The notes under the pieces: model-generated
Databases searched by the model: none
What the model was told of the DNA's origin: nothing
Seen by the model: only the letters and a program-made list of their open reading frames with translations
IMG/VR virus record: IMGVR_UViG_3300036852_000049
Location: 1-44,141 of that record
Strand: one strand, 5' to 3'
Length of the DNA: 44,141 nt
Source: a virus
Shown: positions 3,090-41,798 of the stretch, one piece after another
Layout: each line of letters starts with the position of its first letter
Numbering within the stretch: the stretch's first letter is position 1
Made by a program: the position numbers and the translations under genes

Positions 3090-3215
3090 GAGAATGACTC
3101 CGAGTCATGGCGTCCCACTTCCACGCCGGAGCCCCTTGCACTCAATTGCTCGCTCGCGCCAGACCGCCAAGGGAAGCGGCTTTTCGGGGATCAGCCTAGG
3201 CGCGGCTTGCTCTGT

Positions 3216-3431
3216 CTATGGCATGACCGCCTGTTCGCCGCCGATGGCGGGGATCGATTCCTTGGCGAGCATGTGGCAGTTGTTGCGCATCAACTCGCCC
3301 GTCTCTTTCGAGAACCAGCGTTCATGCAGGATCACTTCCTTGGGGTTGTTCATCCATTCATGCTCGTAGCGCAGGCTCGACTCCGGGACGTTGCCGTCCT
3401 TCGTCCACATCAAGGGTTCTGCGGTGTTCAT
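3216..3431 (-). CDS. Conserved small phage protein downstream of portal
   Basis: 71 aa, MNTAEPLMWTKDGNVPESSL onward. It is coupled to the portal gene by a four-base ATGA overlap (3431/3428). Charged and soluble-looking, with no membrane segment. Small proteins of this kind often follow the portal gene in BPP-1-like podophages; I do not recognise a named function. The product may be a connector accessory protein. Confidence 0.75.
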   Translation of the reverse strand: MNTAEPLMWTKDGNVPESSLRYEHEWMNNPKEVILHERWFSKETGELMRNNCHMLAKESIPAIGGEQAVMP

Positions 3432-5704: not shown

Positions 5705-5985
5705 CAGGCAGACCCGCTCGGGGCGTAGATGAACGTCACGTTAATCGTGGCGCCCAGTGTCGCATAGAGCCCGCCAGCGCCGTACGACGACGGCAGACGA
5801 TGCCAACCAATAGCCGGAGTGATCGTGCCGGTGATTGCCGTGCCGCCCGATCCGCCATCGAGCAGGGCGACCGTTCCCGAGGTCGTGCTGTTGACGTAGA
5901 AGCCGAGCAGCGTGCCGGCTGTCGCCGAGACAGCCCCCGAGCTGGTCAGATTCTTGTAGTTCCCGCCTTCAACGACATGTGCCAT
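5704..5985 (-). CDS. Small beta-rich protein between terminase and portal
   Basis: 93 aa from the ATG at 5985, which overlaps the terminase stop as TGATG. A longer upstream reading exists but would run deep into the terminase gene. The sequence is Gly/Ser/Thr-rich with alternating hydrophobics (FYVNSTTSGTVALLDGG) and ends in a beta-type segment NVTFIYAPSG. Small Ig-like or jelly-roll-like proteins of this composition are seen next to phage head genes. A head-decoration role is possible but not shown. No membrane or enzymatic motifs. Confidence 0.72.
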   Translation of the reverse strand: MAHVVEGGNYKNLTSSGAVSATAGTLLGFYVNSTTSGTVALLDGGSGGTAITGTITPAIGWHRLPSSYGAGGLYATLGATINVTFIYAPSGSA

Positions 5986-7397
5986 CAAATCCGCCCGGTT
6001 GGCCTCGGAGCTGTGGCATACAGCTCCTCCAAAGTCACCGATGGCTGGCCTACCGTGATACCCCGCATTGGCTCGGGAGCGGGTTTCGGCGGTTCGGCCA
6101 ATCGCATAATCAGGCACCCGTACGAGAATCCATCCCCGTCATGGCTCGCCCAGTCATGCAGGGGTTCGGATGAGAATGTCCGTAAGTCCTCGTCATATTC
6201 GTAGGACCACGACCTTAATGCATCCAAACCCTTTTCGCATCGGTCAGCGTTGAATTCTATACGCGGTATCAAAACCCGTGCAGCATTTATTCGATCCGCT
6301 TTGCTGGAGTTTGGCGTAATACTCACTCGGTCCGCGCCAAAATTGTCCACGAATATCTCGACGGCTGACCTTTGTGCTGAGAATGTCTTTGCCCTCGCGT
6401 CGTGAGGTAACCATATTCTCCCTAATGCAGACTTTCTCCCTTGGATCGAGTATTCGTCCAATTTCTTGGCGAGCCGGGCACACCATTCCTCGGCGTCGAT
6501 TCCCCAGCCGGAGTCATGGTCGATGATGCGGTAACCCCCAATACAGGCTTGCCAGAACCACCATGTAGCCGTATCTCGTCTTCCAATGTCCGCAGAGATT
6601 TCAATAGGCTGACCAAGCGGATCGAGGTCAACATCAGGTCGTATGCGCCCAGCGCGCTCAGCAAGGCCAATCTGTCTGGCAAGGATTGCTCCAAGGTTTG
6701 CAGCGTCGAAGCTGCACAGGTACTCTTGCTCGAACTTGCTTCGTCCATAGTCCTCTCCGAAGTCGTTGATATATGCCTGTAGCTCGGCCTCCAGCTGGGC
6801 GCCGGTGAGAATGCCGGTGTCCGTGGCGGTCAGGACCTGCCCGAAGGCGTTTGGGTCACGCTGGGCGGTCTGGAGCGTGCGCAGGGCATGGTTTCGGCCC
6901 CGCGGCGTGCCATTGAAGATCTGCCAGCCCCCGTTTTCCAGCAGGATGGGCCGCAGGTAGGCTCGCACATCGGGGTTGGACAGCGGCCACTCGGAATAGA
7001 CGATCCCCGCAGGGGGGGAGCCGACCAGGCTATCCGGGTTATCCGAGCCCACGACCTGAAACGTCGAGCCATTGACGAACTCGATGAACATCTCCTGATC
7101 GCGGGTCGTCCTGCGCAACTCGCGAGGGAAAGCTTCATCGATACGGCGCCGCCCTGTATGGGGGTTGATCGCCATCCAGATCGCCTTGCGGGCTTGGTTG
7201 TACTGAGGCAAGCAGTACCAGTATGTTGCCGGGCGCTGAAAGGCTGCCACCGCCGTCCAGTGCAGCCCCAGCTCGTCCTTGCCCGCTCGCCTGTGCCATA
7301 CGAGTTCGGCATGGCGCCCACCATTCTCGAGATAACTCCACGCCGGTAGCTGGTAGGGTCGCGGCTGCCAGTTATTTGGCAGGGTCACTGTTGCCAT
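5985..7397 (-). CDS. terL: Terminase large subunit (ATPase/nuclease)
   Basis: 470 aa, a normal length for the family. The ATPase half has an Arg-type Walker A, HRRAGKD (residues 35-41), and a Walker B-like GIVYSEW (131-137), followed by a coupling-type FNGTPRGRNH (161-170). The nuclease half carries SADIGRRDTATWW (268-280) with acidic residues D270 and D275, and a late HDGDGFSYG segment providing the last acidic residue. It packages DNA into the procapsid together with the small subunit upstream. The nuclease half (about 6180-6780) is visibly less GC-rich (close to 50% in 6241-6360) than the surrounding genes, hinting at mosaic origin. Confidence 0.95.
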   Translation of the reverse strand: MATVTLPNNWQPRPYQLPAWSYLENGGRHAELVWHRRAGKDELGLHWTAVAAFQRPATYWYCLPQYNQARKAIWMAINPHTGRRRIDEAFPRELRRTTRDQEMFIEFVNGSTFQVVGSDNPDSLVGSPPAGIVYSEWPLSNPDVRAYLRPILLENGGWQIFNGTPRGRNHALRTLQTAQRDPNAFGQVLTATDTGILTGAQLEAELQAYINDFGEDYGRSKFEQEYLCSFDAANLGAILARQIGLAERAGRIRPDVDLDPLGQPIEISADIGRRDTATWWFWQACIGGYRIIDHDSGWGIDAEEWCARLAKKLDEYSIQGRKSALGRIWLPHDARAKTFSAQRSAVEIFVDNFGADRVSITPNSSKADRINAARVLIPRIEFNADRCEKGLDALRSWSYEYDEDLRTFSSEPLHDWASHDGDGFSYGCLIMRLAEPPKPAPEPMRGITVGQPSVTLEELYATAPRPTGRI

Positions 7398-7701
7398 AGC
7401 GCACGATGTTGACCGTCACGCTGCCATCCACATTTGCATTGACCTGCATCGGGAGCACTTTGCCGAGCAGCGGCAGAAACGCAGCGGGCTTCTCTCGCGC
7501 CTGCTTGGTTAGGTACTCAACGCCCCCCGCCTTGGTGAGCGCCTGAAGGATCATGTCCTTCAGTTCCGCCGTGACCTTGTTCGGCTTGCCCTTGCGGCTG
7601 CCGCCCTTGGGTTGCGGTCGCTTGGCAGTTTTTGGCACTTTGTTATCCATGTTAGTTATCACTGACTTCCAAGCCCGGATATCTTCCCAGTCGTTATCCA
7701 T
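7372..7701 (-). CDS. terS: Terminase small subunit-like protein
   Basis: 109 aa from ATG 7701; a second in-frame ATG at 7650 (MDNKVPKTAKRPQPKG) is an equally good start and neither has a clear Shine-Dalgarno. Residues after the second Met carry the family pattern GGSRKGKPNKVTAELKDMIL, followed by a helical segment and KVLPMQVNANVDG, as in the small DNA-binding proteins that precede TerL in this phage group. The C-terminus overlaps the terL start by 26 bases. It probably recognises the packaging site. The assignment rests on position and this short basic motif. Confidence 0.72.
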   Translation of the reverse strand: MDNDWEDIRAWKSVITNMDNKVPKTAKRPQPKGGSRKGKPNKVTAELKDMILQALTKAGGVEYLTKQAREKPAAFLPLLGKVLPMQVNANVDGSVTVNIVRYGNSDPAK

Positions 7702-7771
7702 AGGCAGGCGCCGCGCGCATGAAGCCCTGCCCGAAGAAGCCGGTTCCTCCCGTGACAAGGACGTTCTTCAC
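7694..7771 (-). pseudogene. N-terminal remnant of an NAD-dependent sugar epimerase/dehydratase
   Basis: A 25-codon frame starts at GTG 7771, overlapping the stop of the tail-protein gene as GTGA, and ends at TAA 7694. Its product begins VKNVLVTGGTGFFGQGF, the start of an extended short-chain dehydrogenase: beta-strand 1 followed by the NAD-binding TGGxGFxGxxF loop. Everything after about residue 20 is missing, and the small-terminase frame takes over. Seen: an intact, coupled start and Rossmann motif. Inferred: a nucleotide-sugar epimerase (CapD/PseB type) once lay here and was deleted, leaving only the beginning. Confidence 0.65.
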
Positions 7772-10335
7772 AGCACCCCCACCGAGTAGAGCTCCACCCA
7801 ATCGGCTTGGAACCCGTTGCGCAGGAACGCGATGCCGTTCCACTCCCGAAGCAGCGGGATGGTGATGTCGGCCAAGGCGATGGTTCCTGCGCCGTTCGTG
7901 CCACGCAGCGTGTCGTGCGTGATGCCGGTTCCCTGGTTGACGAAGGACACGGGAATGGCCACCCCGTCGTTGACGAAGATGTTGGCCGTCATCCCGGGCT
8001 GGTTGCACGTGTATCGCACGCGCAGGGTGTAGTTGCCAGCCACCGAGGCGTACACCAAGCCTCGCACCACGGACGGATTCGCCCTGCCGAGGTTCGGATA
8101 CGTGCCGGGGCTGTCATAGACCCCGACCTCGAAGGTGCGTGCATCGAATGTGCCCGGGACAAGGTGTCTGCTGACGTTTGGCGGGCTGGCGCGCGCTGCA
8201 GCGAAGGCGTTGAGCTTCGGCGTGTTGAGGTTGGCAATGCTGTCGGTGACACCCCACACCTGATCGCGGTTCTGGTCGGTGGGCTGCAAGAAGCCGAGGG
8301 TGTACCACTCCAAGACGTCCCCGCCCGCGAGGAACCAGTCGTTGAGCATCGTCTGAATGGGCGCCTGGATGCCAGGATCGAACTGCGCTGCGCACCGAAC
8401 CGCGAGGTCAGCGCCGTTGAGGGTGTTGCTCTTGGTGTCCGGTCCACCTTCGTAGCAGCCGATGCGCAGGTTCGGATCGATAGACAGGGCAAAGGCCTTG
8501 CGTCGTTCGAAGTGATAGTCGCTCTTGGCAAGGACGCAGTTGGCTTGCAGAGCGCCCACGATCTGTGCCTGCGTGGCTCCTGCAGTTTCCTGAAACGGGG
8601 TGGCGAAGAAGTACGGCGCGCCATCCCACATGTACAGGTAGCCGGTCAGTCCGCTCACTGGGCGGGCGGTCCACTTCGTTTTCAAGTAGCGCAGTTGCGA
8701 GTCGGCAAACGCATCGTCAGGGTTGGCGATCATCTGGTCTTCCCAGACGATGCGCCAACGTATGCCCATCTTCGCGTCCCCGATGGTGGGGCGGGCGCGC
8801 ACGAGGTCGCTGATCTCCTTCGTCCTGCGAATCCTGTAGCGTTGAGCGAGTGGATACACGTCCACAATACTGTCTGCAGCGAGTGTCGAGCCGAGACGAA
8901 GCGTGCTGTTCAGTTCGCCGATGACGCGCTGACCGCTGTTCACGGTGAGTGCACCCTGCAATCCGGTGCCCGCATAGGTGAACGTTGCGGTCTTGGGTCC
9001 GGTCACCGTTACCGCCGGCTGCGGGTTGCCCCCGTCGATGCTGGTGAAGTAGACCGTCTGCCCGTTCGTCCACTGGTGGTCATCGCCCAGCGAGGTGAAC
9101 GTCACCGTGGTCCCGCTACGCGAGAGCGCGAAGTCGCGGGTGCCCTCGGTACCAACAAAGCCCTTGAGCTCCCCTGCTGCCTGCCGCACCCTCACATGGA
9201 ACTGGCTGAAAGCGGAGTTCCAATCCTCGTTGGACGAGCCCAGCTTGATCCACAGATTGGAGTTGAGCCGGCCCTCCACGAAATCAGCGAAGGCGCCGAC
9301 GTCCGCATCGCTGAACCCGAGCGGGATCTGCATGTGCAGGTTGACGTTGGACCTGTTCGCGAGGTCGACCATGTCTTCGTAGGTGACCTGGTTGTGATTG
9401 GTCGCCCGACGGCGCGAGGTCGCCCATGTTGGGCTTCCCCAAGTTGGCGCTGCGCCGACGATGCCCGCGTTGTTGAATGCCTGCATGTCCATCGTGCGCA
9501 GGGAATCGAAGCGCCTGAAGTAGGTGACGGCCTCGTCGGTCCACACCTTGGTCGTGATGTCCGCGACCGTGTAGCCAGGGTGGGCTAGCACGATGTTGGT
9601 CACACCAGGCGATGTACCGGGGCCCGTGCGTCCCGCCCCGTTGAACAAGAGGTTGAAGTTGTCCACCCCCGTGCCGGCGATTGCCGCAGCGCGCAGCGTG
9701 AACGTGCTGGTATTCGTGCCACTGACATACGTGGGCACGCCACCATTGAGCACGGTGTATCGCGAGTTGTCATTCACGGGCAGCGTGATCGACGTTGCGA
9801 AGCCGGTGAACTGGCCGAGCATGTCTTGTTGGACATTGGCGCGCTTCAGGTTGTGCGGGCGAACCCGGAACGTGGCGACCGTTGGCCAACCCTCGGGATC
9901 AACCGGGCACGGGTCGATGCCGCCGCCCCCACTGCCTCCTGTTGCCACCGTGAAGACATCGAAGCCCTGCTGGACCATGTTGACCAGCAACGGCTCGGTT
10001 TCGTAGTACTGCGTTCCGGCCACGTTGCCACCGATGCGCACCGTCACGGTCGGCGCATCGACCACGGGCGAGAACAGAGCCGACTGAATCGATTGCCCGT
10101 TCAGCCCCACCGTGCTCGACTTGCCGACGGTTCCGGCATTGCTCGAGCTCGCAATACCCGTGATCGCAAGGGCTGCGGTGAAGACTGCTGATGCAACAGC
10201 GGTCGCAATCTCGATGCTCGGCAATTGGTTCGATGCCGAACCCCCGCCGACCCTGCGCGACTTGAGCCCGACCAGCATCTCGCTCGGCGATGAGCCAGTG
10301 TTGCTGGTCGATTCGGAGCCGACGAGATCGGTCAT
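7768..10335 (-). CDS. Tail protein with glycoside-hydrolase (clan GH-A-like) barrel
   Basis: 855 aa. The N-terminal ~45 residues share the VGLKSRRVGGGSAS motif and a GSES segment with the 1151-aa tail protein, suggesting a common virion-docking peptide. Residues ~245-375 look like a TIM-barrel hydrolase: FDSLRTMDMQAFNNAG, then YEDMVDLANRSN, MQIPLGF, and SSNEDWN with Glu370. A beta-rich insertion (400-470) follows, and CYEGG supplies a second Glu at 629. The pair SNE(D/V)W plus YEGG is the acid/base and nucleophile layout of the bacterial 'cellulose-binding' hydrolase family. The C-terminal ~130 residues resemble a carbohydrate-binding beta-sandwich. Role inferred: depolymerising tail spike. 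Confidence 0.8.
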   Translation of the reverse strand: MTDLVGSESTSNTGSSPSEMLVGLKSRRVGGGSASNQLPSIEIATAVASAVFTAALAITGIASSSNAGTVGKSSTVGLNGQSIQSALFSPVVDAPTVTVRIGGNVAGTQYYETEPLLVNMVQQGFDVFTVATGGSGGGGIDPCPVDPEGWPTVATFRVRPHNLKRANVQQDMLGQFTGFATSITLPVNDNSRYTVLNGGVPTYVSGTNTSTFTLRAAAIAGTGVDNFNLLFNGAGRTGPGTSPGVTNIVLAHPGYTVADITTKVWTDEAVTYFRRFDSLRTMDMQAFNNAGIVGAAPTWGSPTWATSRRRATNHNQVTYEDMVDLANRSNVNLHMQIPLGFSDADVGAFADFVEGRLNSNLWIKLGSSNEDWNSAFSQFHVRVRQAAGELKGFVGTEGTRDFALSRSGTTVTFTSLGDDHQWTNGQTVYFTSIDGGNPQPAVTVTGPKTATFTYAGTGLQGALTVNSGQRVIGELNSTLRLGSTLAADSIVDVYPLAQRYRIRRTKEISDLVRARPTIGDAKMGIRWRIVWEDQMIANPDDAFADSQLRYLKTKWTARPVSGLTGYLYMWDGAPYFFATPFQETAGATQAQIVGALQANCVLAKSDYHFERRKAFALSIDPNLRIGCYEGGPDTKSNTLNGADLAVRCAAQFDPGIQAPIQTMLNDWFLAGGDVLEWYTLGFLQPTDQNRDQVWGVTDSIANLNTPKLNAFAAARASPPNVSRHLVPGTFDARTFEVGVYDSPGTYPNLGRANPSVVRGLVYASVAGNYTLRVRYTCNQPGMTANIFVNDGVAIPVSFVNQGTGITHDTLRGTNGAGTIALADITIPLLREWNGIAFLRNGFQADWVELYSVGVL

Positions 10336-22076: not shown

Positions 22077-22277
22077 ATGCTGATGCTGAGCGCCGTCGAT
22101 TTGCACCGCCTGACCGGCTTCAAGCGCCGGTCAGAGCAGGCGCGCTGGCTCGCCGAGCAAGGGATACCATTCCGCGACATGGATGGCCGCCTGGTCGTGC
22201 TCCAGCCGCATGTCGTGGCATGGATGGAGGGCAGGGCATCACGGTCGCAGGAACCCCGCTTGGACCTTGTGCGATGA
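22077..22277 (+). CDS. DUF4224 protein (excisionase-like partner of integrase)
   Basis: 66 aa from ATG 22077. The DUF4224 pattern is complete: LSAVDLHRLTGFKRRSEQAR, then WLAEQGIPFRDMDGRLVV. These winged-helix-like proteins almost always sit immediately upstream of a tyrosine integrase and are presumed excisionases or directionality factors. Its stop overlaps the integrase start as ATGA, supporting joint synthesis. A longer in-frame start at 22032 would overlap the previous gene. Confidence 0.82.
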   Translation: MLMLSAVDLHRLTGFKRRSEQARWLAEQGIPFRDMDGRLVVLQPHVVAWMEGRASRSQEPRLDLVR

Positions 22278-23290
22278 CGAACGCCTATCCCCGCCTGCGC
22301 AGTCACGTCCGCAAGAGGAAGAACGGCAGCATTGTCGTTTACTACTTCTATGACATGCGCCTATCGGGGAAGCCTGACGTGCCGCTCGGGACGGACTACG
22401 AGGAAGCCATCCGACGCTGGCGCGTGCTCCACGAGCACATCCCCCGCATCAAGGGAACGCTCATGGAGGCTTTCGAGGCGTGGGAGCGAGACGTTCTGCC
22501 GACCTACGAGAATGCCGGCACGAAGCGGACCTATGCGCAGAACCTGCGCACGCTCAAGCCGATCTTTGGGACTTCGACGTGGGATCGGGTGAAGCTGCCA
22601 CATCTGAAAGCGTACCTGAAGCAGCGAAGCGCCAAGACGCAGGCGAACCGGGAAATGGCGCTATTGTCGATCATCTGGAACTGGGCGAGGCTTGAGGGCC
22701 TGCATGAACTGCCGTGGCCCGCGGCGGGCATGGAGAAAGCACGATGGAGAAACAAGGAACAGGCGCGGCAGTTCGAGGTATCCGATGCCCTCTTCTCTGC
22801 GATCTACGAGGCGGCGGACACTGTGTTACGCGACTGTATGGACTTAGCTACTGCTACCGGCATGCGCCTGACCGACTGCCGGACTGTACTGATGCCGACC
22901 GGGGACGAACTCGCATTGCGCGCATCGAAGACTGGGAAGATGGTGTCGTTCGATATAAAGGAATCGGCCGTCCTTACAGCGTTGGTCGAGCGCCGCCGCG
23001 CCATCAAGGCATCGCACCTCATGCTGCTGACAACGCCGACAGGGAAGCCCGTCTCGGCGACGATGCTACGGGATAGGTACGACGCAGCTCGTGCCAAGGC
23101 GGCAGCGAAGTCCGAGAACGCTGAGATCGTCGACCAGATCAAGGCCATGTTCCTGCGGGACATGCGCAAGCGCGCGGCCGATCTGGCGGGCGACCTGAGC
23201 GAAGCAAGCCGTCTGTTGCAGCACTCTAGCGAGGCTGTGACGAGAATCCACTACAGAACCCGGCCTGTGAAGGTCAAACCCGTCCGTTAA
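22274..23290 (+). CDS. int: Tyrosine recombinase (phage integrase)
   Basis: 338 aa from ATG 22274. An N-terminal arm-binding region (KRKNGSIVVYYFYD) and a core-binding SAM-like domain (KRTYAQNLRTLKPIFG) precede the catalytic domain. Catalytic residues visible are Arg198 (TGMRLTD), Lys219/222 in ASKTGK, the FLRDMRKRAA box (292-301), His317 (LLQHSSEAVT) and Tyr327 (IHYRT). The first box residue, normally His, is Arg here, as in the 'RDxR' subgroup of phage integrases. The attP (3' end of a tRNA-Leu) lies 370 bp downstream, so int and attP are adjacent as usual. Confidence 0.93.
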   Translation: MTNAYPRLRSHVRKRKNGSIVVYYFYDMRLSGKPDVPLGTDYEEAIRRWRVLHEHIPRIKGTLMEAFEAWERDVLPTYENAGTKRTYAQNLRTLKPIFGTSTWDRVKLPHLKAYLKQRSAKTQANREMALLSIIWNWARLEGLHELPWPAAGMEKARWRNKEQARQFEVSDALFSAIYEAADTVLRDCMDLATATGMRLTDCRTVLMPTGDELALRASKTGKMVSFDIKESAVLTALVERRRAIKASHLMLLTTPTGKPVSATMLRDRYDAARAKAAAKSENAEIVDQIKAMFLRDMRKRAADLAGDLSEASRLLQHSSEAVTRIHYRTRPVKVKPVR

Positions 23291-31945: not shown

Positions 31946-33480
31946 AGTATCGAGCCTTGCCTCATGACAAGGTCGGTGGCAATCCAGTGCACGTCAATGC
32001 CTTGGCTGGCAACCTGCAATCGTGGCGCAGCGCAGTAACCCACCCCGGCAATACCCTGCCACTGTTTCTGAATGGTGTTCCCGCCACTCCACATGGCTGC
32101 GTCCCAGATGCTCGTGTCCCAGACCCCGGAGGTCGATGGGGCGTAGGATAGGGTGCTGATAACACCGGTATCGTCGAAATCGATGTTAATCCCCGAGCCG
32201 ATGGCTGGCGACCCATTGGTCGCGATGATCGGGCGCATCATCGTCCATTGCTTCAACTGCCCGGGCGTGCCAAAGTAGTTGAATGCCTGCTTCCCATCTG
32301 CGGCGATGTTCGATGTCCCGTCCGCATACCCGTTCCAGGCCCGGCAGACCACGCCATTCCCCCCAAAATAGGGGTTATCCTGGAACAGTTCCCAGCAGTT
32401 CGCCGGCCAGCCGGTGAAGTTGCACCATGACTTCGTAATGGTGTTCATCACATACTGTTCCTGAGTGCCCACCGCGACGGGGACGTTCAGGAACAGCATG
32501 TTTTGCTTCGGGAATGGAAGAACCTGCCAGCCAAAGGTCGATCCGTAGTTCGCGACCGCATCACTGACGGCATGCTGAATCTTGTCCGACAGCGCCGCGG
32601 TGAGGTTCAGCCGGGCCGACTGGAGCCCCTTGGACAGAGGAAGCAGCCCGTCCTGACAGACCAGCAAAAGGTCACCGCCGAACTTCTGGAGGCAGCGCCG
32701 GCCAATGGGGCTGCCAAGCTGCCACACCCCCAAAAGGGCGAAGGTGGAAGCCGAAGCGGGGTCAGTGCCCTGGTAGACTATCACTTCGCCTTTGCTCGTA
32801 ACGAAGACGAGCATGTCGTCCACACCCTGACCTCCATCGATTGTCCAAGTGCCGATAGCCATGATGTAGCCGCCCAGTTTGGCGACGTTCTGCAACGGGA
32901 AGGATGTCGCCGCGCCTTGGATAGCGTCCGTTCCCAGATACCACGCCTTGAGTGTCCCCGTTTCGACGAGCCAGATCCGGTGCTTGAACAGCGTAATTCC
33001 GATGGCCGTGGCAGTGTCGAGGCCGGTAACGCTGAAGGCGCCGCCGTCCGCGCCCCATGTGCTGCCGTCGAAGTAGCGCATCTTGTCCGCGCCATTGACC
33101 GCGAGGAGGTAGTTCCCGCCAGAGGTCGCGACATTGGTGTATTGCCAACGTCCATTGGTCATGCTGGAGACCGCCGCCGCACCGACGGCCCCGGCCGAGG
33201 TCACGTCATAGATCTTGGTGCCGACCCCGGCGAACATCTTCTCCGTAGCTCCTCCGGAGTAGGCCATGATGGTCTCGACTTGCCCCGTCATCCCCGTAGC
33301 ATGATTCGTATATCCCAGTCGCAGGGATATGTCCGATGTGGAGGGAAACCAGTTCTTCAGGTAGACCGCATCGAGCGGCTTCATGGCTCCCAGGGCATCG
33401 CGGGCGTTCCAGCCGCCCACGGGAGCCGCAAGCGAGGCCGGAATGCTTAGGTTAGGAGCCGTAGCCCGTGTCCGGGACAT
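31942..33480 (-). CDS. P22 gp10-like tail nozzle/DNA-stabilisation protein
   Basis: 512 aa from ATG 33480, chosen over a TTG at 33492 because of GGAAT upstream. The sequence is a beta-rich repeated W/G structure. The N-terminus APVGGWNARDALGAMKPLDA, followed by YLKNWFPSTSDISLRLGYTN, is diagnostic of the 'packaged DNA stabilisation/tail hub' family in BPP-1-like phages. Later segments such as GSPIGRRCLQKFGGDLLLVC and KSWCNFTGWPANCW fit a six-bladed propeller. It closes the tail tube below the adaptor. Confidence 0.87.
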   Translation of the reverse strand: MSRTRATAPNLSIPASLAAPVGGWNARDALGAMKPLDAVYLKNWFPSTSDISLRLGYTNHATGMTGQVETIMAYSGGATEKMFAGVGTKIYDVTSAGAVGAAAVSSMTNGRWQYTNVATSGGNYLLAVNGADKMRYFDGSTWGADGGAFSVTGLDTATAIGITLFKHRIWLVETGTLKAWYLGTDAIQGAATSFPLQNVAKLGGYIMAIGTWTIDGGQGVDDMLVFVTSKGEVIVYQGTDPASASTFALLGVWQLGSPIGRRCLQKFGGDLLLVCQDGLLPLSKGLQSARLNLTAALSDKIQHAVSDAVANYGSTFGWQVLPFPKQNMLFLNVPVAVGTQEQYVMNTITKSWCNFTGWPANCWELFQDNPYFGGNGVVCRAWNGYADGTSNIAADGKQAFNYFGTPGQLKQWTMMRPIIATNGSPAIGSGINIDFDDTGVISTLSYAPSTSGVWDTSIWDAAMWSGGNTIQKQWQGIAGVGYCAAPRLQVASQGIDVHWIATDLVMRQGSIL

Positions 33481-34351
33481 TGGCGATTCCAATCAGCACC
33501 TGGCTCGGACGTGGCGCAAAGGACAGCATGGGCGCCCCGCTGTCGTTCGCCTTGGCCAAGGAAAGTTCGCGCTCCCAATCGTTCTGATAGACCGGGCCGA
33601 ACCCTTTGACCGTGAAATATTTGTGCTTTAGCCCGGCGACCATGAGGCGGTCGGGAAAGATGCAGGTATCAGTATCCACCGTCAGGGAAGTCTTCCCCGC
33701 CGCAGCGGTGTCCGCCGCCCACTGGGTGGAGACATACTCCATGCCCAACTCTTCGTTGGAGGCAAGCGGCGGCCAGATCTGGAACGTGCCGCCGAGCCGG
33801 CGAAACCGCACCCTCGGGCCGGTGGCGATGAAGCCCGATTTGAGCCATTGCCATTGCTGGGGCGTCTCGGGTCCCAGCATCTCCCAATGCTTGGTCTTGT
33901 CCCACTGGGTTCTATCGATGGGACGATCGAAGTCACTCGGGTTGCTGTACTTCGTCTTGCAGAAGTTCAGGCTCACCCCCGTACCAGAGGACGAGGCCGT
34001 TGAGGAAATCGTCACCTGCGTTGCCGAGTCCACTGAGTTCACATAGACATCGCTCTTGATGCCCGTTCCGACGACCATGTAGGTGGTGTCGATTCCCGTC
34101 GTTGATGGGATGGCGGTCACTGTCGCCGACCCGCTGGTGACATTCCCCGTGGTCGTCGTGTAGTTCGTGGTGAAGCGGTATTCCCTGCACAATGCGTTCC
34201 ACTCATATTCCCGCTGAAGCTCGTAGCCCACCGCATTCAGCAGGGCCAGCTGCTGGATTGTGTCCTGCGCCGTGTTTCCCGCGACATAGGTCGGCACAAC
34301 GAGCCCCATCTCGCCCGTGGCCTGCTGGATCAGGGCGAGCATCGTGGTCAT
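33452..34351 (-). CDS. Head-tail adaptor protein (gp4-like)
   Basis: 299 aa. The N-terminal ~60 residues (MLALIQQATGEMGLVVPTYV, then QLALLNAVGYELQREYEWNA) form the helical core of podophage adaptor proteins that attach below the portal. A central Gly/Ser/Thr-rich beta insertion (residues 70-110) is followed by a conserved WDKTKHWEMLGPETPQQWQW segment. It overlaps the 217-aa gene upstream by four bases and the nozzle gene by 29. Confidence 0.85.
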   Translation of the reverse strand: MTTMLALIQQATGEMGLVVPTYVAGNTAQDTIQQLALLNAVGYELQREYEWNALCREYRFTTNYTTTTGNVTSGSATVTAIPSTTGIDTTYMVVGTGIKSDVYVNSVDSATQVTISSTASSSGTGVSLNFCKTKYSNPSDFDRPIDRTQWDKTKHWEMLGPETPQQWQWLKSGFIATGPRVRFRRLGGTFQIWPPLASNEELGMEYVSTQWAADTAAAGKTSLTVDTDTCIFPDRLMVAGLKHKYFTVKGFGPVYQNDWERELSLAKANDSGAPMLSFAPRPSQVLIGIANVPDTGYGS

Positions 34352-35001
34352 TGCGTTTCAACCTCTTTGCGCGGACGCCCCGGACCGCGCTTTTGGCTCA
34401 TCTCCTCCATGGCCTTTTTCATCTGTTCCATTTGCTCCTGCATTCGACGCATGCTTTCCTGATGCTCGCGTTGCTGGTCAGCCAGCTCCTTTTTCTTGGC
34501 CTCTAGCTCCTGAACCGCCAAGCTCACCGTCGAAACATCCTTGGCGACCGTCAGGTAACGGTGGGCCTTCTCCCGAAGAGCGAAGGGGCTCATGCCACCG
34601 GACATGCCCATGCGGTTCAGTTGCTCATCGCTCGCGTGGGCGATGTTCTCTACCGTATGGAACTTCTGCGCCCGCAGTTCTTCGGCCTGAGAGGGAGTCA
34701 AGAGCGGCCACTGGGACAGTGGCGTTCCGACCTGGCCCCCCTCGTTCTGGCTGTTCTTGAAGAACGCCCAGTGACGCGGGAACCGGGCTTTGTGGTCATC
34801 GCGCACTGGAACCTCGATCACTGACAGGGCATCGCCTGGCGCTTGGATACGCACCCAGACCGTATCCTCGAAGATCGGGCGTCCTTCGGCCTCGCTGCGA
34901 GCGGGAATATGCATGGGCCGGGAGAAGAATTTGACGATCATTCCGGCGTCAGGATCGCTGGCCCCGTGAAAATCGGGGTTGTTCATATCAGATGCGAGCA
35001 T
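34348..35001 (-). CDS. Virion-associated protein with coiled coil and AT-hook-like tail
   Basis: 217 aa from ATG 35001 (AAGG at eight bases; ATG 34986 is an alternative). Residues 1-90 form a beta-rich domain. A helical hairpin-like segment (LLTPSQAEELRAQKFHTVEN) resembles a helix-hairpin-helix, then residues 150-205 form a Gln/Glu/Met-rich coiled coil (QQREHQESMRRMQEQMEQMK). The C-terminus KRGPGRPRKE is a textbook AT-hook core (RGxGRPRK). Conserved next to the adaptor gene in related phages. It may contact packaged DNA. Confidence 0.77.
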   Translation of the reverse strand: MLASDMNNPDFHGASDPDAGMIVKFFSRPMHIPARSEAEGRPIFEDTVWVRIQAPGDALSVIEVPVRDDHKARFPRHWAFFKNSQNEGGQVGTPLSQWPLLTPSQAEELRAQKFHTVENIAHASDEQLNRMGMSGGMSPFALREKAHRYLTVAKDVSTVSLAVQELEAKKKELADQQREHQESMRRMQEQMEQMKKAMEEMSQKRGPGRPRKEVETQ

Positions 35002-35010
35002 TAAGGGCCT

Positions 35011-35694
35011 TCAAGGAGTTGAAGTCTGGACCGCGTTGACCATCGCGTGATGGCGGTGCCAGAGGTCCGCTTTCTGGCAATCCTTGTATTCCGGGAAGCA
35101 TGGGGCTCCGATGGTGTAATGATAAATCTTGGCCTGGGTATCTGGATACTCCATGACCAGATGATTCCATTCCTTCGGTAACTCCCCCACCTGATAATCC
35201 ATCAGCCACTCGAAGCGGTGCAGGTGGGAACCGGCCGAACGCATCACATACTCGGGCGTCAATACCCGGTTCGTGAGGTGCCCGCAGTTCCAGAGGATCA
35301 GGCTGGACCAGTTTTTGCATGGATAATCGTCGTTGCGCGCCCCGAGATACTTGACGGGATACTTGGTCTTGTAGTTGTGCTTGACGACCTGGACGGCGCT
35401 GCGGTAGTTGCGCAGGCTCCACAGTTCGGCGATGTCCGCATCGCAGACCATGTCGCCATCGGCGAAGATCGCCCAGCCGCCGAAGCCCATCAGGTGGGGG
35501 ACGAGAAAGCGCGAGTAGATGAACTCGTTTGACCCATCGCCGTGGTGCTCTTCGTAGCCGGCGAGGGTGTTCAGGGCGAGCGGATAGAAGCCCACCGGCT
35601 GGCTCGCTTTGGACAGCACCGACTGACAGAAGGTGTGATACGCCACACTCTCTCGCGCGTCATACCCGACGAAGATCGGGATCACTTCACGCAT
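35011..35694 (-). CDS. GT-A glycosyltransferase (GT8-like)
   Basis: 227 aa, MREVIPIFVGYDARESVAYH onward. The fold is GT-A: an N-terminal nucleotide-binding strand (IPIFVGYDARE) and the metal-binding FADGDMV (DGD at 79-81). Later come LILWNCGH (a conserved Trp-Asn-Cys turn) and WHRHHAM near the C-terminus supplying His residues. Length is short for GT8 but fits phage versions. It overlaps the methyltransferase end by 13 bases. It is the last of a four-gene sugar-modification cassette placed between capsid and tail genes. Confidence 0.85.
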   Translation of the reverse strand: MREVIPIFVGYDARESVAYHTFCQSVLSKASQPVGFYPLALNTLAGYEEHHGDGSNEFIYSRFLVPHLMGFGGWAIFADGDMVCDADIAELWSLRNYRSAVQVVKHNYKTKYPVKYLGARNDDYPCKNWSSLILWNCGHLTNRVLTPEYVMRSAGSHLHRFEWLMDYQVGELPKEWNHLVMEYPDTQAKIYHYTIGAPCFPEYKDCQKADLWHRHHAMVNAVQTSTP

Positions 35695-36188
35695 TCAAGC
35701 CTCATGTCGCGCATCTCGAAGTGATAGCGCGGCGTTGTTGCCTGGATGTCACGGAACCCTGCGGCGCGCAGCACTTCCTTCATCATGTCCGTGGTGTACC
35801 CCCACTTGTGGACCATGAGCGGATCCCTGTACCTCGGGTCGCCCCAGAAGACGTGCCAGCCCATCGACTTGGATATGGGCATCTTGTGCTTCACGCAGGC
35901 ATAGATGTAGGTGAGCACCTTTTCCATGCAGGGCAACTCAAGAATCAACTTGCCCCCGGGCTTGAGCACACGGCGCCACTCGGCCAGCAGATCGGCCACC
36001 TGCCATTGGTAGAAGTGCTCGATCACGTGGATCGCGATCGCCACGTCCGCGTGGTTGTCCTCGAACGGCAGCCGCCTCAGATCTACGCGGACATCGCCGT
36101 GTTCGAGATCGACGTTGATCCAGCCGGGCCAGAGGCATTTGCCCGAGCCGAGATTGAGTCCAATCCCAGGACTTTCCTCCACGCACAC
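35682..36188 (-). CDS. SAM-dependent methyltransferase (class I)
   Basis: 168 aa if it starts at GTG 36188; the frame is open to 36278 but no start has a good Shine-Dalgarno. The SAM-binding motif is at the very beginning (IGLNLGSGKCLWPGWINVDL), followed by LRRLPFEDNHADVAIAIHVI, EHFYQWQ and LLAEWRRVLKPGGKLILELP: the Methyltransf_11 pattern. Its 5' end overlaps the glycosyltransferase frame by ~100 bases, so either the C-terminus of that protein is reading into this gene or a frameshift joins them. Sugar O-methylation is the likely reaction, inferred from neighbours. Confidence 0.82.
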   Translation of the reverse strand: MCVEESPGIGLNLGSGKCLWPGWINVDLEHGDVRVDLRRLPFEDNHADVAIAIHVIEHFYQWQVADLLAEWRRVLKPGGKLILELPCMEKVLTYIYACVKHKMPISKSMGWHVFWGDPRYRDPLMVHKWGYTTDMMKEVLRAAGFRDIQATTPRYHFEMRDMRLECVK

Positions 36189-36919
36189 GCCTGTGTTTCG
36201 GGCGAGTACTTTCTTCTCACGTAGTCCTGGGCTTGCCTCGTCCGTTCGTTGGCTGCCGTCAGGTTGTGCTTGGCCCATCTCACGCCTTCTGCAATGTCAC
36301 CGATCCAGATTCCGGGGATGTCCAGTGACGGATGAGGCTCCGCCACGACAAAACAGCCCTGCCTCACCGCCTCGATCGCTCGGTTCGGGCTCTTGTAGTC
36401 CTTCGTCGCCGGCAGGATCACCATGTCGGCGTATGCAAACTCATGCCGCATCGTCTCCAGGCTCCACTGAATGGTCCCTGAGACGTTCGAGACCACCCGC
36501 AGCGGATAGCGGGTCAGCGTCGGCGCCACCCGCAACAGTGTCCTGAAGTTGGTCGCATGGCCGAACCACAGCAGCTTGACCCCCGAGCAATGGGGCATGG
36601 CCTCTTCAAACTCGTAGGCATCGGGGACTACCAGAGCCCCGGGAATGCGCTGTGCAAGGACCGGCGTCGGGCAGGTGACAACCTGAGCGCACGCCAACAA
36701 GGCTTGGTAAAGCGGGGTTTGCAGGTGGTCGTCGCAGACATCGACGATGACGCGCTGGGCTCGCTCGGCGAGCTCGGCGTCTCCGGGCAGGGGCTTGGCA
36801 AAGATGAGGGTGTCTGCGGTGGTGTCATTGATCGATACTCCGAGGCTCTTGGCGGGCATCTCCGCCCGATACCGGTAACTCGCCATCGTGGGTCCGCCGC
36901 GATGGATGAAGGAGATCAC
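36083..36919 (-). CDS. GT-B-type glycosyltransferase
   Basis: 278 aa from ATG 36919 (ATGA overlap). The GT-B C-terminal domain is recognisable: VKLLWFGHATNFRTLLRVAP, then ADMVILPATKDYKSPNRAIE, followed by AVRQGCFVVAEPHPSL, the family's 'KspnKxxEAxxxGxxVVa' donor site (176-193). YVRRKYSPETQACAWRKVL is the expected final helix. The last ~20 residues after that are read from methyltransferase DNA in another frame. The N-terminal half is short (about 110 residues), so the acceptor domain is minimal. Confidence 0.83.
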   Translation of the reverse strand: MISFIHRGGPTMASYRYRAEMPAKSLGVSINDTTADTLIFAKPLPGDAELAERAQRVIVDVCDDHLQTPLYQALLACAQVVTCPTPVLAQRIPGALVVPDAYEFEEAMPHCSGVKLLWFGHATNFRTLLRVAPTLTRYPLRVVSNVSGTIQWSLETMRHEFAYADMVILPATKDYKSPNRAIEAVRQGCFVVAEPHPSLDIPGIWIGDIAEGVRWAKHNLTAANERTRQAQDYVRRKYSPETQACAWRKVLGLDSISARANASGPAGSTSISNTAMSA

Positions 36920-37671
36920 TTCCGCTGCCTCAGGATCTCAGCAATGAGTCCGTCGCCCTTGGCCTCGATTTGAATGTCCAGCAGTGTCGTAAAAAGCTCC
37001 TGGAACTCGTTGGCCTGCTGCGCCATAGAGCCGTTGCACCAGAAGCGGCGCCCGTTATCGCCGACCTGGACCTCGAAGACACTGCCTGCCTGCTCGCCGG
37101 TGAAGCGCTTGGTCTTCCTGTCCGCCGCCAAGCACGAGTCCATGCCGTAGAGCACGAACTTGCGAAAGCCCATCACATAGCCGACCGTGATCGCTCGCAT
37201 GCCCGAGGTGCTTCCCCCCCCGATGGCAGGGTGTCCCCGGTAGGCTTGGGCTTCCTCGATCGAGCCGAAGGAATGCCAGAGCATGACCTTGCGGTCCTTC
37301 AGGGTATCGAGCATCACCGGATCACACCGGGATGCCACCAGATAGATGGTGCTGTTGTTCGCCTGCTTGATGTTGTCCCTGCGGTCCCGTGGATCCACGC
37401 AAATGAATAGATCGGGCTCGATCCCCTCCTCGCAGAGAAAGTCGTGCGCTCCTTTGACCGCACAGATCGGCCGCCCCTGTCTGCGTTCGGCGCGAATCTC
37501 TTCGGCAAACGCAGGCAGGGAAGGCCCGGAGCCGACCACGATGAAGGTCCCATCGTGGCGACACAGGCCCGGCGTGACTTCGGGAAGCCCGCGAGCCAGT
37601 GCAGAACGAATGTTCGCCGAGTTGGACTCGGGCGTACCGTAGTTCTGGCACCGGATCGCGAGCGGTTCCAA
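36916..37671 (-). CDS. DUF115/MAF-flag10 (Maf-like, MptE-like) protein
   Basis: 251 aa. The DUF115 core is well preserved: TFIVVGSGPSLPAFAEEI (42-59), ICAVKGAHDFLCEEGIEPDL, then FICVDPRD (89-96), and GGGSTSGMRAITVGYVMGFR followed by KFVLYGMD (151-178). The family includes Maf proteins, which transfer nonulosonic acids onto flagellin Ser/Thr, and the archaeal pterin pyrophosphokinase MptE. It is adjacent to the decoration protein gene (one base) and ATGA-coupled to the GT-B gene. I infer a protein-glycosylation role; a nucleotide-transfer role is the alternative. Confidence 0.85.
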   Translation of the reverse strand: MEPLAIRCQNYGTPESNSANIRSALARGLPEVTPGLCRHDGTFIVVGSGPSLPAFAEEIRAERRQGRPICAVKGAHDFLCEEGIEPDLFICVDPRDRRDNIKQANNSTIYLVASRCDPVMLDTLKDRKVMLWHSFGSIEEAQAYRGHPAIGGGSTSGMRAITVGYVMGFRKFVLYGMDSCLAADRKTKRFTGEQAGSVFEVQVGDNGRRFWCNGSMAQQANEFQELFTTLLDIQIEAKGDGLIAEILRQRK

Positions 37672-38154
37672 TCAGACCCCGCCTTGGAACGTAATGTGCG
37701 GGTAACCGCACACGATCGTCATCGCCGTGGCGTTCGAGATCGTGTTTTGCGCCGTCGCACCCGCCACCATCGCCGCCGACACCGTCGCATCATCGAGCAC
37801 GCCCACCGTGGAGGTGAGGTACAGCGGGACGCTGGGTGCGCAGTTGGCCGCGCAGTTGACGATGGGCGCCCCGCCGATCTGCACCCAGCCGTAGAAGGCC
37901 GAGGCAATCGACACCTGCGCAAAGCCCACGCGCTTGAGGGTAACGCCAAGGGCCGTCGTGGACATCCGCGCCACTGCCGATGCGTCAATGAGGACGCAGG
38001 CATAGGTCGAGATTTCCGACAGCGCCTTGACGTACATCGCCTGCCCGCCATCGCTCAGATTGACCACCGTCCCAGGCGTGAAGCCCGCGATGGAAGACGG
38101 ATCCGAGGTCAGGCTGATGCCGGCATGACCCGAGAGAGAAAATGCAGTCGTCAT
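37672..38154 (-). CDS. Probable capsid decoration/head protein
   Basis: 160 aa, MTTAFSLSGHAGISLTSDPS onward. It is Ala/Ser/Thr/Val-rich, all-beta in pattern and has no membrane segment. It follows the major capsid gene after ten bases, where podophages of this group encode the head-decoration or cement protein. SSIAGFTPGTVVNLSDGGQA and ALGVTLKRVGFAQVSIASAF resemble beta-tulip decoration proteins. Ser/Thr make up a large share, and the glycosylation cassette starts one base later, so it is a candidate substrate. Confidence 0.72.
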   Translation of the reverse strand: MTTAFSLSGHAGISLTSDPSSIAGFTPGTVVNLSDGGQAMYVKALSEISTYACVLIDASAVARMSTTALGVTLKRVGFAQVSIASAFYGWVQIGGAPIVNCAANCAPSVPLYLTSTVGVLDDATVSAAMVAGATAQNTISNATAMTIVCGYPHITFQGGV

Positions 38155-38164
38155 GTCGTTCTCC

Positions 38165-39166
38165 TTAGGCGATCAGCACGCCCTGGAACTGACTGCCCGA
38201 GCAGGTCAGGTTCCCCGCCCAGCCAATCAGTTTCACGATGGCATCCTGGTTGACCGCTTGGCGTTCGCCGCCAATCGGCACGAAGTTGCGATCCCGGTGA
38301 GGCCGGAAGAACATGTACTTCGTGTTCAGGAACCACATGTGCGCGGATGTGGCCGCCGCGCCGATACCGCCGTCGAGTACCACGTCAACGGATTGGCCGC
38401 CGCCGTAGAACTTCAGGCTTGCGAAGCCCGCGCCCGCCGCGCCCTCGCCATCGCTCACCACCCGCTGGATCGCCTGCAACGAGTTCACGTACAGGGCGAA
38501 GTAGGTGTTGTCCGCGACGATCAGGTCGGTCTTGTCGGTCCCGCGAACCAGCTGAATCGCCAGGCTCGTCATGTACTTCTGGATGTTGGTCGACGAAACC
38601 GCTGCCGAGCCGTCGGTCGTGCCCGAGTACTTCAGCGGGCGCCAGAAGGTGTAGGACGCACGATCGATGCCGCCATAGACGCCGGTCGTAGGCGCATCCG
38701 GGGCCAGCGCAGCAAGGCCGGTAATGTTCTTGCCGCCGTTGCCGGTGCCGTCGAGGTAGATGTCCGACGCGAGTCGGTTCATCAGTTGGGCCTCGGCAAT
38801 CGACATCCGCCCTTCGAGCAGGTCGATCATCTGTTCCTTGCCCGAGTTCTGGAGCATTTCCAAACCGGACATGGTGACCGCGGCGGCATACTGCGTGAAC
38901 GAGTACTGCGCCGCGCTGATCGGGCTGTTGGGCGAAATGTTCAACAGCTCATAGCCCGAGTAGCTGTTGGTGTTGTTGGTCGTCGAGTCGTTGTACATGA
39001 TCTCTTCCAAGATCACGTTACCGCCCGAGACCGGACGCACGTTGCCGCGCTGCTTCAGGCGCCGCAAGAGCGCACAGTTGTTGGTGACGTTGTCGGCCAG
39101 CTCACCCGATCGACTCTGGATCGTAGTGGCAATGATGTCCGACACCGCCGAATTGGCGAATGCCAT
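38165..39166 (-). CDS. Major capsid protein (HK97-fold)
   Basis: 333 aa. The start SAVSDIIATTIQSRSGELAD, followed by NVTNNCALLRRLKQRGNVRP, and the central SGYELLNISPNSPISAAQYS and LQNSGKEQMIDLLEGRMSIA are characteristic of a widespread phage major capsid family with HK97 fold. It has no N-terminal delta domain, consistent with the separate scaffold gene upstream. FRPHRDRNFVPIGGERQAVN near the C-terminus is the P-domain/A-domain region. About 400+ copies per head are expected. Confidence 0.93.
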   Translation of the reverse strand: MAFANSAVSDIIATTIQSRSGELADNVTNNCALLRRLKQRGNVRPVSGGNVILEEIMYNDSTTNNTNSYSGYELLNISPNSPISAAQYSFTQYAAAVTMSGLEMLQNSGKEQMIDLLEGRMSIAEAQLMNRLASDIYLDGTGNGGKNITGLAALAPDAPTTGVYGGIDRASYTFWRPLKYSGTTDGSAAVSSTNIQKYMTSLAIQLVRGTDKTDLIVADNTYFALYVNSLQAIQRVVSDGEGAAGAGFASLKFYGGGQSVDVVLDGGIGAAATSAHMWFLNTKYMFFRPHRDRNFVPIGGERQAVNQDAIVKLIGWAGNLTCSGSQFQGVLIA

Positions 39167-40225: not shown

Positions 40226-40504
40226 TCAGGTCTTGGAGTTGAAAACTTCGATCAGCCGTCGTTTCAGCCCGGCAGGTGCACTCGGCGCTTTGGGCTGGAG
40301 ATACCTGGTCTCGTTGCCCACCTCGATACATCCATGGGCTCTGAGCAGTTCCCGGTGTCGGCTGCGGGAGGTCACGACGCTGCCATCCAACTGAGAGCGG
40401 TACGGCTGAATGTCGGGCATGATCATCGGTCCGCTGGGGGCCTGCACATAATCGGCCGGGACCTCGATCAGTTCACCGTTTTTCTGAATCCAGCGGCGAC
40501 GCAT
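40226..40504 (-). CDS. Conserved small phage protein upstream of scaffold
   Basis: 92 aa, MRRRWIQKNGELIEVPADYV onward. The stretch IMPDIQPYRSQLDGSVVTSR, followed by SRHRELLRAHGCIEVGNE, looks conserved among podophages and has the feel of a small zinc-less nucleic-acid or head protein. Its start overlaps the C-terminal end of the repeat fibre by 32 bases, and its stop is one base from the scaffold start. No function known to me. Confidence 0.75.
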   Translation of the reverse strand: MRRRWIQKNGELIEVPADYVQAPSGPMIMPDIQPYRSQLDGSVVTSRSRHRELLRAHGCIEVGNETRYLQPKAPSAPAGLKRRLIEVFNSKT

Positions 40505-41798
40505 TCAAAACCTCGATGAGTTGTGATACTGCCTTGAGCACATTATCACTCTCTTGTTCCGCAAACTCTAGATACGCTTTGACGATTTCATCGTCCGAGG
40601 TATCCTTTGCAGTATCTGCCGGGGGATTTTCGGAGGGCTTGATACCCGGTTTCGGAATATCCGCCTGTGGTTTCGCCATCCCGCCGGCGATCTGATCGCG
40701 CAGGCGGACCCGGGCCTGAGCGGCGTTCTCGGCTTCGACATCGGCCGGGTCTTTCTGGATTTTCTTCTTCTTGTTCGCCAGTTTTTGCGGCCCAACCCAC
40801 CCATCGAGGGCCAGGTCTTCGACGATGAAGCCGAACGAGCCCTGTCCAACGGATGCCGCCAGCCCTGACAGGGATTTGATCTGGTCGCCGATGATGCCCG
40901 TGCCGCCGGCGAGTTGCTGTCCAAAGACGAACGCGAGCGAACTCGCGAACGTAATGCCATGGGCGGTCGTGATCGACTGGCCGCTGAGTGCGAAGGAACG
41001 GTCGCCGGTGGTGAACAGTTGCCCGGCGGTGACGGATGCCTGGACGCCAGTCAACGCCGCCTGCCCTGGTGCACCGAGAGTGCCCACCGCCGATGTGCTT
41101 TGAACACCGCTGATCGGGAACTGCTTGTCGCAGAAGAGTGTTCCAGCCGCGGAGGTCGTCGCCTGTCCCGACACCGCGATGAACTCGTCGCCGCTGGTGA
41201 CTACCGTGCCTTGGCCGCTGGTCGACGCGATGCCCGCGAGCGCGACGGTACTGGTGAGGGAGGCCACCGAGCCGATGCCGGAGAAGATGGCGGTGTCGAT
41301 GCCGGCGCTTTGGTCCGGTGCCAGTGTGCCGGCCGCAAAGGCCGCAGCGAGGCCGCTAATCGGTATGGTGACAGTGGGCGCCGCAGTGCCTGCTGCTGTC
41401 GTCGATGCGCTGCCTGCCGTGCCGGCGCCCTGGATCACCGTGCCGGGCGAGAACGCCGCCTCTTGGCCGGTGATGTTCGCGGTGACGTTGGAACTCGATG
41501 CAGATGTGAAGCCAGCGGCGCTGGTGATCGCCTGCCCCACCGGGTCGGTTGGACGAAGACCGATCGTGAGTGTTCCCGACGCGGAGGTCGATTCGCTGCC
41601 CGTTGGCGCTCGGCTGTAGTCGGGGGCTGCAACGCCTGCCGAGGTAGTAGAGGCTTGGCCGGTCAGCGGGACGATGCCATCGGCATTCGGCGTAACAGCA
41701 CCCTGGGCGCCGGAAATCAGCGCACCGACGAGCGCGAGCGTGATGGCAAAGCCGCCGACGTTGCCGACCGTGGTGCTGACCGATACGCCGCCGCTCAT
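40473..41798 (-). CDS. Repeat-containing virion fibre
   Basis: 441 aa. After a hydrophobic Gly/Ala start (GGFAITLALVGALISGAQGA) there are about 12-13 degenerate units of ~21-23 residues of the form '(L/I)SGQxxTxxxGTL', covering residues ~40-315. Such GTV/GTL repeats form long beta-structured fibres in phage virion proteins. Then a different, charged C-terminal domain begins (DLALDGWVGPQKLANKKKKI) with an Ala/Glu helix and an acidic tail. Ser and Thr are very abundant. It overlaps genes on both sides. Confidence 0.75.
   Translation of the reverse strand: MSGGVSVSTTVGNVGGFAITLALVGALISGAQGAVTPNADGIVPLTGQASTTSAGVAAPDYSRAPTGSESTSASGTLTIGLRPTDPVGQAITSAAGFTSASSSNVTANITGQEAAFSPGTVIQGAGTAGSASTTAAGTAAPTVTIPISGLAAAFAAGTLAPDQSAGIDTAIFSGIGSVASLTSTVALAGIASTSGQGTVVTSGDEFIAVSGQATTSAAGTLFCDKQFPISGVQSTSAVGTLGAPGQAALTGVQASVTAGQLFTTGDRSFALSGQSITTAHGITFASSLAFVFGQQLAGGTGIIGDQIKSLSGLAASVGQGSFGFIVEDLALDGWVGPQKLANKKKKIQKDPADVEAENAAQARVRLRDQIAGGMAKPQADIPKPGIKPSENPPADTAKDTSDDEIVKAYLEFAEQESDNVLKAVSQLIEVLNASPLDSEKR

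Follow-up and report, generated by a model that had tools for sequence, protein, structure and literature searches.

The window analyzed here is the whole of one virus record (IMG/VR record IMGVR_UViG_3300036852_000049, 44,141 nucleotides (nt)), assigned to a Mx8-like podovirus by its backbone genes. Behind its capsid genes, on the minus strand, it carries a cassette of four genes (positions 35,011 to 37,671) whose products resemble a Maf-type transferase, a GT-B glycosyltransferase, a methyltransferase and a GT-A glycosyltransferase. We propose, with a probability of about 0.6, that this cassette is a late-expressed cytoplasmic pathway of virion glycosylation, the acceptor of which is the neighboring capsid decoration protein. 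The decoration protein is favored as acceptor because, from one relative to another, a swap of its type goes along with a swap of the Maf-like enzyme. According to this proposal, the Maf/MptE-like enzyme would transfer a first sugar, drawn as a nucleotide sugar from the host pool, onto Ser/Thr residues of the decoration protein, and would probably do so while the virion assembles or earlier. Extension of the glycan would fall to the GT-B and GT-A enzymes, its capping or modification to the methyltransferase, while decoration protein and enzyme would constitute a matched pair, swapped as one coat module in this phage group. The O-linkage to Ser/Thr and the order of the steps are presumed, and the donor may be a cytidine monophosphate (CMP) sugar, e.g., CMP-Kdo or CMP-nonulosonic acid.

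The first-pass annotation of this DNA had described four consecutive sugar-modifying genes between the capsid/decoration genes and the head-tail genes, and both the open reading frames (ORFs) and the family matches confirm this layout. The identities that it had read from motifs are likewise borne out by profiles, by the DGD motif and by AlphaFold models, and the structure-based search that it had suggested, run for the Maf-like and GT-B models, found glycosyltransferase folds in both cases. The leading gene (36,916 to 37,671, minus strand) encodes a Maf/MptE-like transferase of 251 amino acids (aa), the proposed priming glycosyltransferase, which matches PF01973 with 76.9 bits for a cut-off of 34.6 (2e-21). 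When the profile of its family, built from 26 phage sequences, was compared with the PDB, the best match was the Magnetospirillum Maf (5mu5, 6.5e-12, spanning residues 275-430 of 5mu5), followed by the weaker matches of archaeal MptE/HPPK (0.0018) and of the sialyltransferase Cst-II (0.24). Its AlphaFold model, which has a predicted local distance difference test score (pLDDT) of 90.5, matches the fold of 5mu5 first (1.1e-8), HPPK next (8sd5, 5.8e-8) and then a ST8Sia sialyltransferase. The protein corresponds to the central Maf domain alone and does not have the three-domain architecture of the solved Maf. This central domain is known to resemble Cst-II, and Maf acts in the cytoplasm, on Ser/Thr residues of flagellin (PMC11339370, PMC4065374). 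Because one Maf accepts CMP-Kdo (PMC11339370), this sugar would be a plausible donor in a Gram-negative host.

The second gene (36,083 to 36,919, minus strand; 278 aa, the last ~22 predicted to be disordered) gave no convincing family match by sequence. Its AlphaFold model (pLDDT 90) has the two Rossmann domains of a GT-B/GT4-like enzyme and matches SenB (4.1e-9), the protein glycosyltransferase SdgB (1e-8) and many GT4 enzymes. The third protein is, by its sequence, a class I methyltransferase dependent on S-adenosylmethionine (SAM) (Methyltransf_11, 5.4e-12). Its longest ORF (minus strand) runs from 35,682 to 36,278, and the alignment of relatives and the sequence itself point to a GTG at 36,182 as the most likely start, which gives a product of 166 aa. 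The fourth gene (35,011 to 35,694, minus strand; 227 aa; phrog_28018, 3.5e-39) encodes a protein with the DGD metal-site motif. It reaches GT8 (PF01501) at 4e-4 and 20.4 bits, which is under the Pfam gathering score of 24.3, and the profile of its family matches WbbM (6u4b, 3.7e-5). On the motif and the WbbM match, the protein is GT-A-like, and we do not place it in GT8. Taken as a set, the profiles and the two models support a series of sugar-transfer enzymes.

The genes are tightly packed, as had been noted from the letters. The decoration and Maf-like genes abut with zero gap, the Maf-like and GT-B genes overlap by 4 nt and the methyltransferase and GT-A genes by 13 nt. One junction had to be corrected, since the GTG start brings the overlap between the methyltransferase and GT-B genes to ~100 nt. 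No promoter or terminator rose above chance within the cassette, and no promoter of its own was detected. In the four proteins, neither a membrane anchor nor a hydrophobic segment above 1.35 (Kyte-Doolittle, 19-residue window) was detected.

The decoration gene (37,672 to 38,154, minus strand) encodes the proposed acceptor, a 160-aa virion structural protein (phrog_29386, 2.8e-11), the Mx8 homologue of which is annotated as a major virion structural protein. We compared its history with that of the enzyme in relatives, i.e., metagenomic loci (designated L and a number) limited to 80 per query and not independent of one another. Protein distances were correlated over 89 enzyme-bearing loci, with partial correlations and 2000 permutations. 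The backbone controls were the major capsid protein (MCP; 38,165 to 39,166, minus strand; phrog_9953, 5.7e-104), the Mx8 p50-like virion gene located downstream of the cassette (34,348 to 35,001, minus strand; phrog_20268, 2.8e-20), where gene order matches Mx8 and Mx9, and the SU10-type head-tail adaptor or tail tube gene (33,452 to 34,351, minus strand; PF24175, 7e-5; phrog_6013, 1.2e-38). The distances of these three intercorrelate at 0.85-0.88, though the block lies between the first and the other two. The decoration and Maf-like proteins correlate at 0.77, with a partial correlation of 0.74 and none of the 2000 permutations as high, while the controls give partial values of 0.14-0.17 (MCP with decoration protein) and -0.10 (Maf-like protein with p50). 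This coupling is present between decoration-protein types and within type B (see below). Moreover, in pairs of phages whose MCPs are 92-98% identical, the decoration proteins share only 19-33% identity and the Maf-like proteins 30-32%, or the enzyme is absent. For instance, L266 and L061 have an MCP identity of 98% and an adaptor identity of 94%, for 19% in the decoration protein, and the Maf-like gene is absent. The coupling, together with these sharp differences between phages with near-identical capsids, indicates that the decoration and Maf-like genes travel jointly. Neighborhood alone would not account for it, because break points lie close by on both sides and none was seen between the two genes. 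On the MCP tree, the presence of the enzyme requires at least 9 changes.

Many relatives also carry, between the Maf-like gene and p50, a member of a Ser/Thr-rich family that we call c0 (118-291 aa; L111:6728-7603, L016:5143-5499). This family is probably a head fiber, and its long forms have an apparent C1q/TNF-like C-terminus; the window is devoid of c0. When c0 is included in the analysis, the correlations are 0.72 between decoration and Maf-like proteins, 0.20 between Maf-like protein and c0, and -0.03 between decoration protein and c0.

The same association appears when decoration-protein types are separated by individual profiles and loci are fetched by the decoration query, i.e., blind to the enzyme. 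We distinguish type A (that of the window), type B (the Mx8-like family) and two short types. The Maf-like gene is present in all 66 loci fetched with the type A query. For type B, it is found in 62/62 loci with a loop-bearing query and in 1/77 with a loopless one, and the two short types have it in 0/14 (capsid-fetched set). The type B segment that precedes the DPxYG motif measures 44-50 aa in 65 of the 67 sequences accompanied by the enzyme and 33-35 aa in 58 of the 62 that are not, the extra residues being rich in Ser, Thr and Pro (e.g., VTTAGGTTIPTPPAVLG). In bacterial contigs, which form an independent collection, the Maf-like gene is present in the 4 complete loop-bearing loci (4/4) and in none of ~20 others. 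An excess of Ser/Thr over the whole protein was tried as a marker and rejected: its value is 0.21-0.22 in the types accompanied by the enzyme and 0.16 in short-loop type B, but 0.24-0.26 in the short types devoid of it. Separately, in Silicimonas bins that also contain a Mx8-like capsid gene, a decoration-like domain opens two very long ORFs (L431:11394-16787, 1797 aa, and L432:3635-6508).

The Maf-like enzyme is near-core in the uncultivated relatives. A relative of it is encoded in 300 of the matched IMG/VR stretches, and among loci fetched by the capsid protein alone, the gene lies directly behind the decoration gene in 44 of 61 complete capsid-to-p50 spans. A search of bacterial contigs with the Maf-like protein found no relative, and the capsid alignment retrieved 31 loci there, of which only a few, located in metagenome bins, carry the enzyme. 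The other genes come in nested sets, i.e., Maf alone; Maf with GT-B and methyltransferase; or these three with GT-A. GT-B and methyltransferase always co-occur (32/32 loci), and GT-A is found only where both are present (9/9 loci). In the other branch, Maf-like proteins often have a methyltransferase fused at their C-terminus, a SAM motif being present there in all 44 proteins longer than 400 aa. The single 659-aa protein of L070 contains Maf and methyltransferase domains (Pfam) and, in the N-terminal stretch ahead of them, a GT-A-type metal motif seen by eye (VLYLDLDTV). In L171 (5213-8239), a different phage contig, all four enzyme types form one block with a rearranged gene order, next to the genes of ribonucleotide reductase and ThyX. 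These nested sets, the fusions and the L171 block support a single pathway in which the leader, Maf, is constant and the later steps are optional.

Several observations weigh against glycosylation of the decoration protein. The phage enzyme, with its 251 aa, is devoid of the other two domains of 5mu5, and PF01973 also includes a pyrophosphokinase. The decoration proteins of the window type (A) have no loop insert, and within this type the partial correlation between decoration and Maf-like proteins is 0.03, i.e., there is no coupling beyond the backbone. L227 pairs the enzyme with a short-loop decoration protein, partial inserts occur without a Maf-like gene in L176 and L178, and remote type A relatives in Rhodobacteraceae contigs are without it too. 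The four-gene block of L171 lies away from the capsid genes. Only five independent contrasts are available on well-supported branches of the MCP tree, of which 4 agree and 0 oppose (p 0.125). Finally, the acceptor, the linkage and the donor are all things that we infer.

Virion glycosylation could also have another virion protein as its main acceptor (MCP, head fiber or tail), the decoration gene co-traveling simply as a neighbor in the exchange block. This explanation, which we hold to be possible but rather unlikely, is consistent with the contiguity of the decoration and enzyme genes, with the Ser/Thr-rich, head-fiber-like c0 that follows the enzyme in many relatives, and with the known phage virion glycans, described on capsid and tail tube subunits (PMC12619734, citing Freeman 2023). 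However, break points separate MCP from decoration gene and enzyme from c0, while no separate change of type was seen within the decoration-Maf pair; c0 is missing from the window, and the MCP stays nearly constant while the enzyme changes type or is lost. The first-pass annotation had pointed to a virion protein as substrate and named two candidates. The decoration protein, exchanged with Maf, stands, while the Ser/Thr-rich repeat protein encoded at 40,473-41,798 was rejected as a conserved acceptor, as no homologue was found in ~170 related loci. This 441-aa Ser/Thr/Ala repeat protein, encoded upstream of the capsid gene, is an orphan virion or fiber candidate.

The same annotation had preferred a virion substrate to the conversion of host lipopolysaccharide (LPS). 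The late-operon position and the lack of a detected membrane anchor agree with this preference, but the phage encodes an integrase (22,220 to 23,290, plus strand; phrog_1, 2.8e-16) and is therefore probably temperate, which keeps some room for enzymes that would alter the LPS or another surface glycan of the lysogen and block superinfection. Phage glycosyltransferases often change the O-antigen, and the GT-A protein is a distant relative of the O-antigen enzyme WbbM. We consider such a conversion unlikely, since the set includes no flippase, membrane anchor, acyltransferase or hydrophobic segment and does not qualify as a gtr-type cluster, no separate promoter was found in it, its late-operon position is kept in more than 100 relatives, and the coupling to the capsid protein type would be left unexplained. 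Less probable still is a leader that would resemble 6-hydroxymethylpterin pyrophosphokinase in its activity instead of being a glycosyltransferase. Archaeal MptE shares with it a Pfam family, named MptE-like, and a fold core, as the match of the model to HPPK illustrates, but the Maf profile match is better by nearly nine orders of magnitude, the partner genes encode glycosyltransferases and a methyltransferase, the cassette has no pterin genes, and in one homologue a GT-A-like stretch precedes it within the same protein. A modification of phage DNA or nucleotides is, in our view, very improbable. It would fit the surroundings of the L171 block, and viral glycosyltransferases that hypermodify DNA are known (Pyle 2024, as cited in PMC12619734); yet no base-modification enzyme was matched among the scanned window proteins, and in the Mx8-like group it is the capsid decoration protein to which the set is tied, and not the replication genes.

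Glycosylation of the decoration protein would resemble several known systems. With the Maf flagellin glycosyltransferases (Maf_flag10/PF01973; Magnetospirillum 5mu5, Aeromonas Maf1, Clostridium botulinum Maf), the leader shares the central transferase domain, as both profile and fold show, as well as the proposed cytoplasmic action and the pairing with one abundant self-assembling surface protein. However, the flagellin enzyme measures 666 aa instead of 251, the partner here is a capsid decoration protein and not flagellin, and neither flagellin nor nonulosonic acid synthesis genes were found among the window proteins scanned. In mycobacteriophages, phage-encoded glycosyltransferases are likewise reported to modify virion proteins of the capsid and tail tube (Freeman et al. 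2023, Cell Host Microbe, as described in citing papers); these citing papers mention neither Maf-type enzymes nor a decoration protein. The SdgA/SdgB enzymes are also GT-B proteins acting on Ser-rich surface proteins, those with Ser-Asp repeats, and SdgB ranks among the best fold matches of the GT-B model, though at 10-12% identity and in a system without Maf or methyltransferase. As for the named phages of this group, Mx8, Mx9, BUCT555 and ppBjS10J-1 have the same order of capsid, p50, adaptor and tail genes as the window, but no cassette behind the capsid genes.

Elsewhere in the window, the portal (3428-5704) and terminase (5985-7397) genes are on the minus strand, and the record is probably circularly permuted. 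Two pathway hints of the first-pass annotation did not hold. The GNAT gene at 31,520 (phrog_4470, 1.2e-45) is real but is also present in relatives without the cassette, and the supposed epimerase remnant at 7694 has no PHROGs match (7694-8008). Two tRNA genes (24,460 and 24,776) lie 1.2-1.6 kb from the integrase gene, and an int-alpA RNA (Rfam; 37.6 bits for a cut-off of 35.8) is matched at 3139-3206, minus strand, downstream of the portal gene. In several relatives, group I introns (RF00028; 61 and 56 bits) split the major capsid gene (L092:4486-4707, L153:4229-4451), and in others (L010, L017, L048) HNH-like endonuclease genes lie between the capsid and decoration genes.

Virion glycosylation as such is already known, but in few phages is it documented. 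The literature searched, the coverage of which mostly excludes subscription journals, showed no case of a Maf-type enzyme that is matched to, and swapped with, a capsid decoration protein. Moreover, tblastn found no relative of the Maf-like or GT-B proteins among 50,697 named phage records, and the absence of the leader from them may explain why such a system was overlooked. In the common, uncultivated group described here, phages seem to possess an enzyme dedicated and matched to their decoration protein, together with a candidate acceptor loop whose presence or absence follows that of the enzyme. Such a pair with its loop opens the acceptor, the specificity and the purpose of phage coat glycans to direct testing, and the group is a source of small stand-alone Maf-type enzymes. 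The coat could serve in shielding, a role described for mycobacteriophage glycans (as cited in PMC12619734), in adhesion, or in an altered or tuned adsorption. More broadly, and tentatively, a large group of uncultivated Mx8-like phages may carry interchangeable modules, made of a decoration protein, its dedicated Maf-type transferase and optional extending or methylating enzymes, by which virions that are alike in other respects would swap whole glycan coats in the manner of capsid serotypes; in one of the decoration families, a Ser/Thr/Pro loop may have been gained as acceptor.

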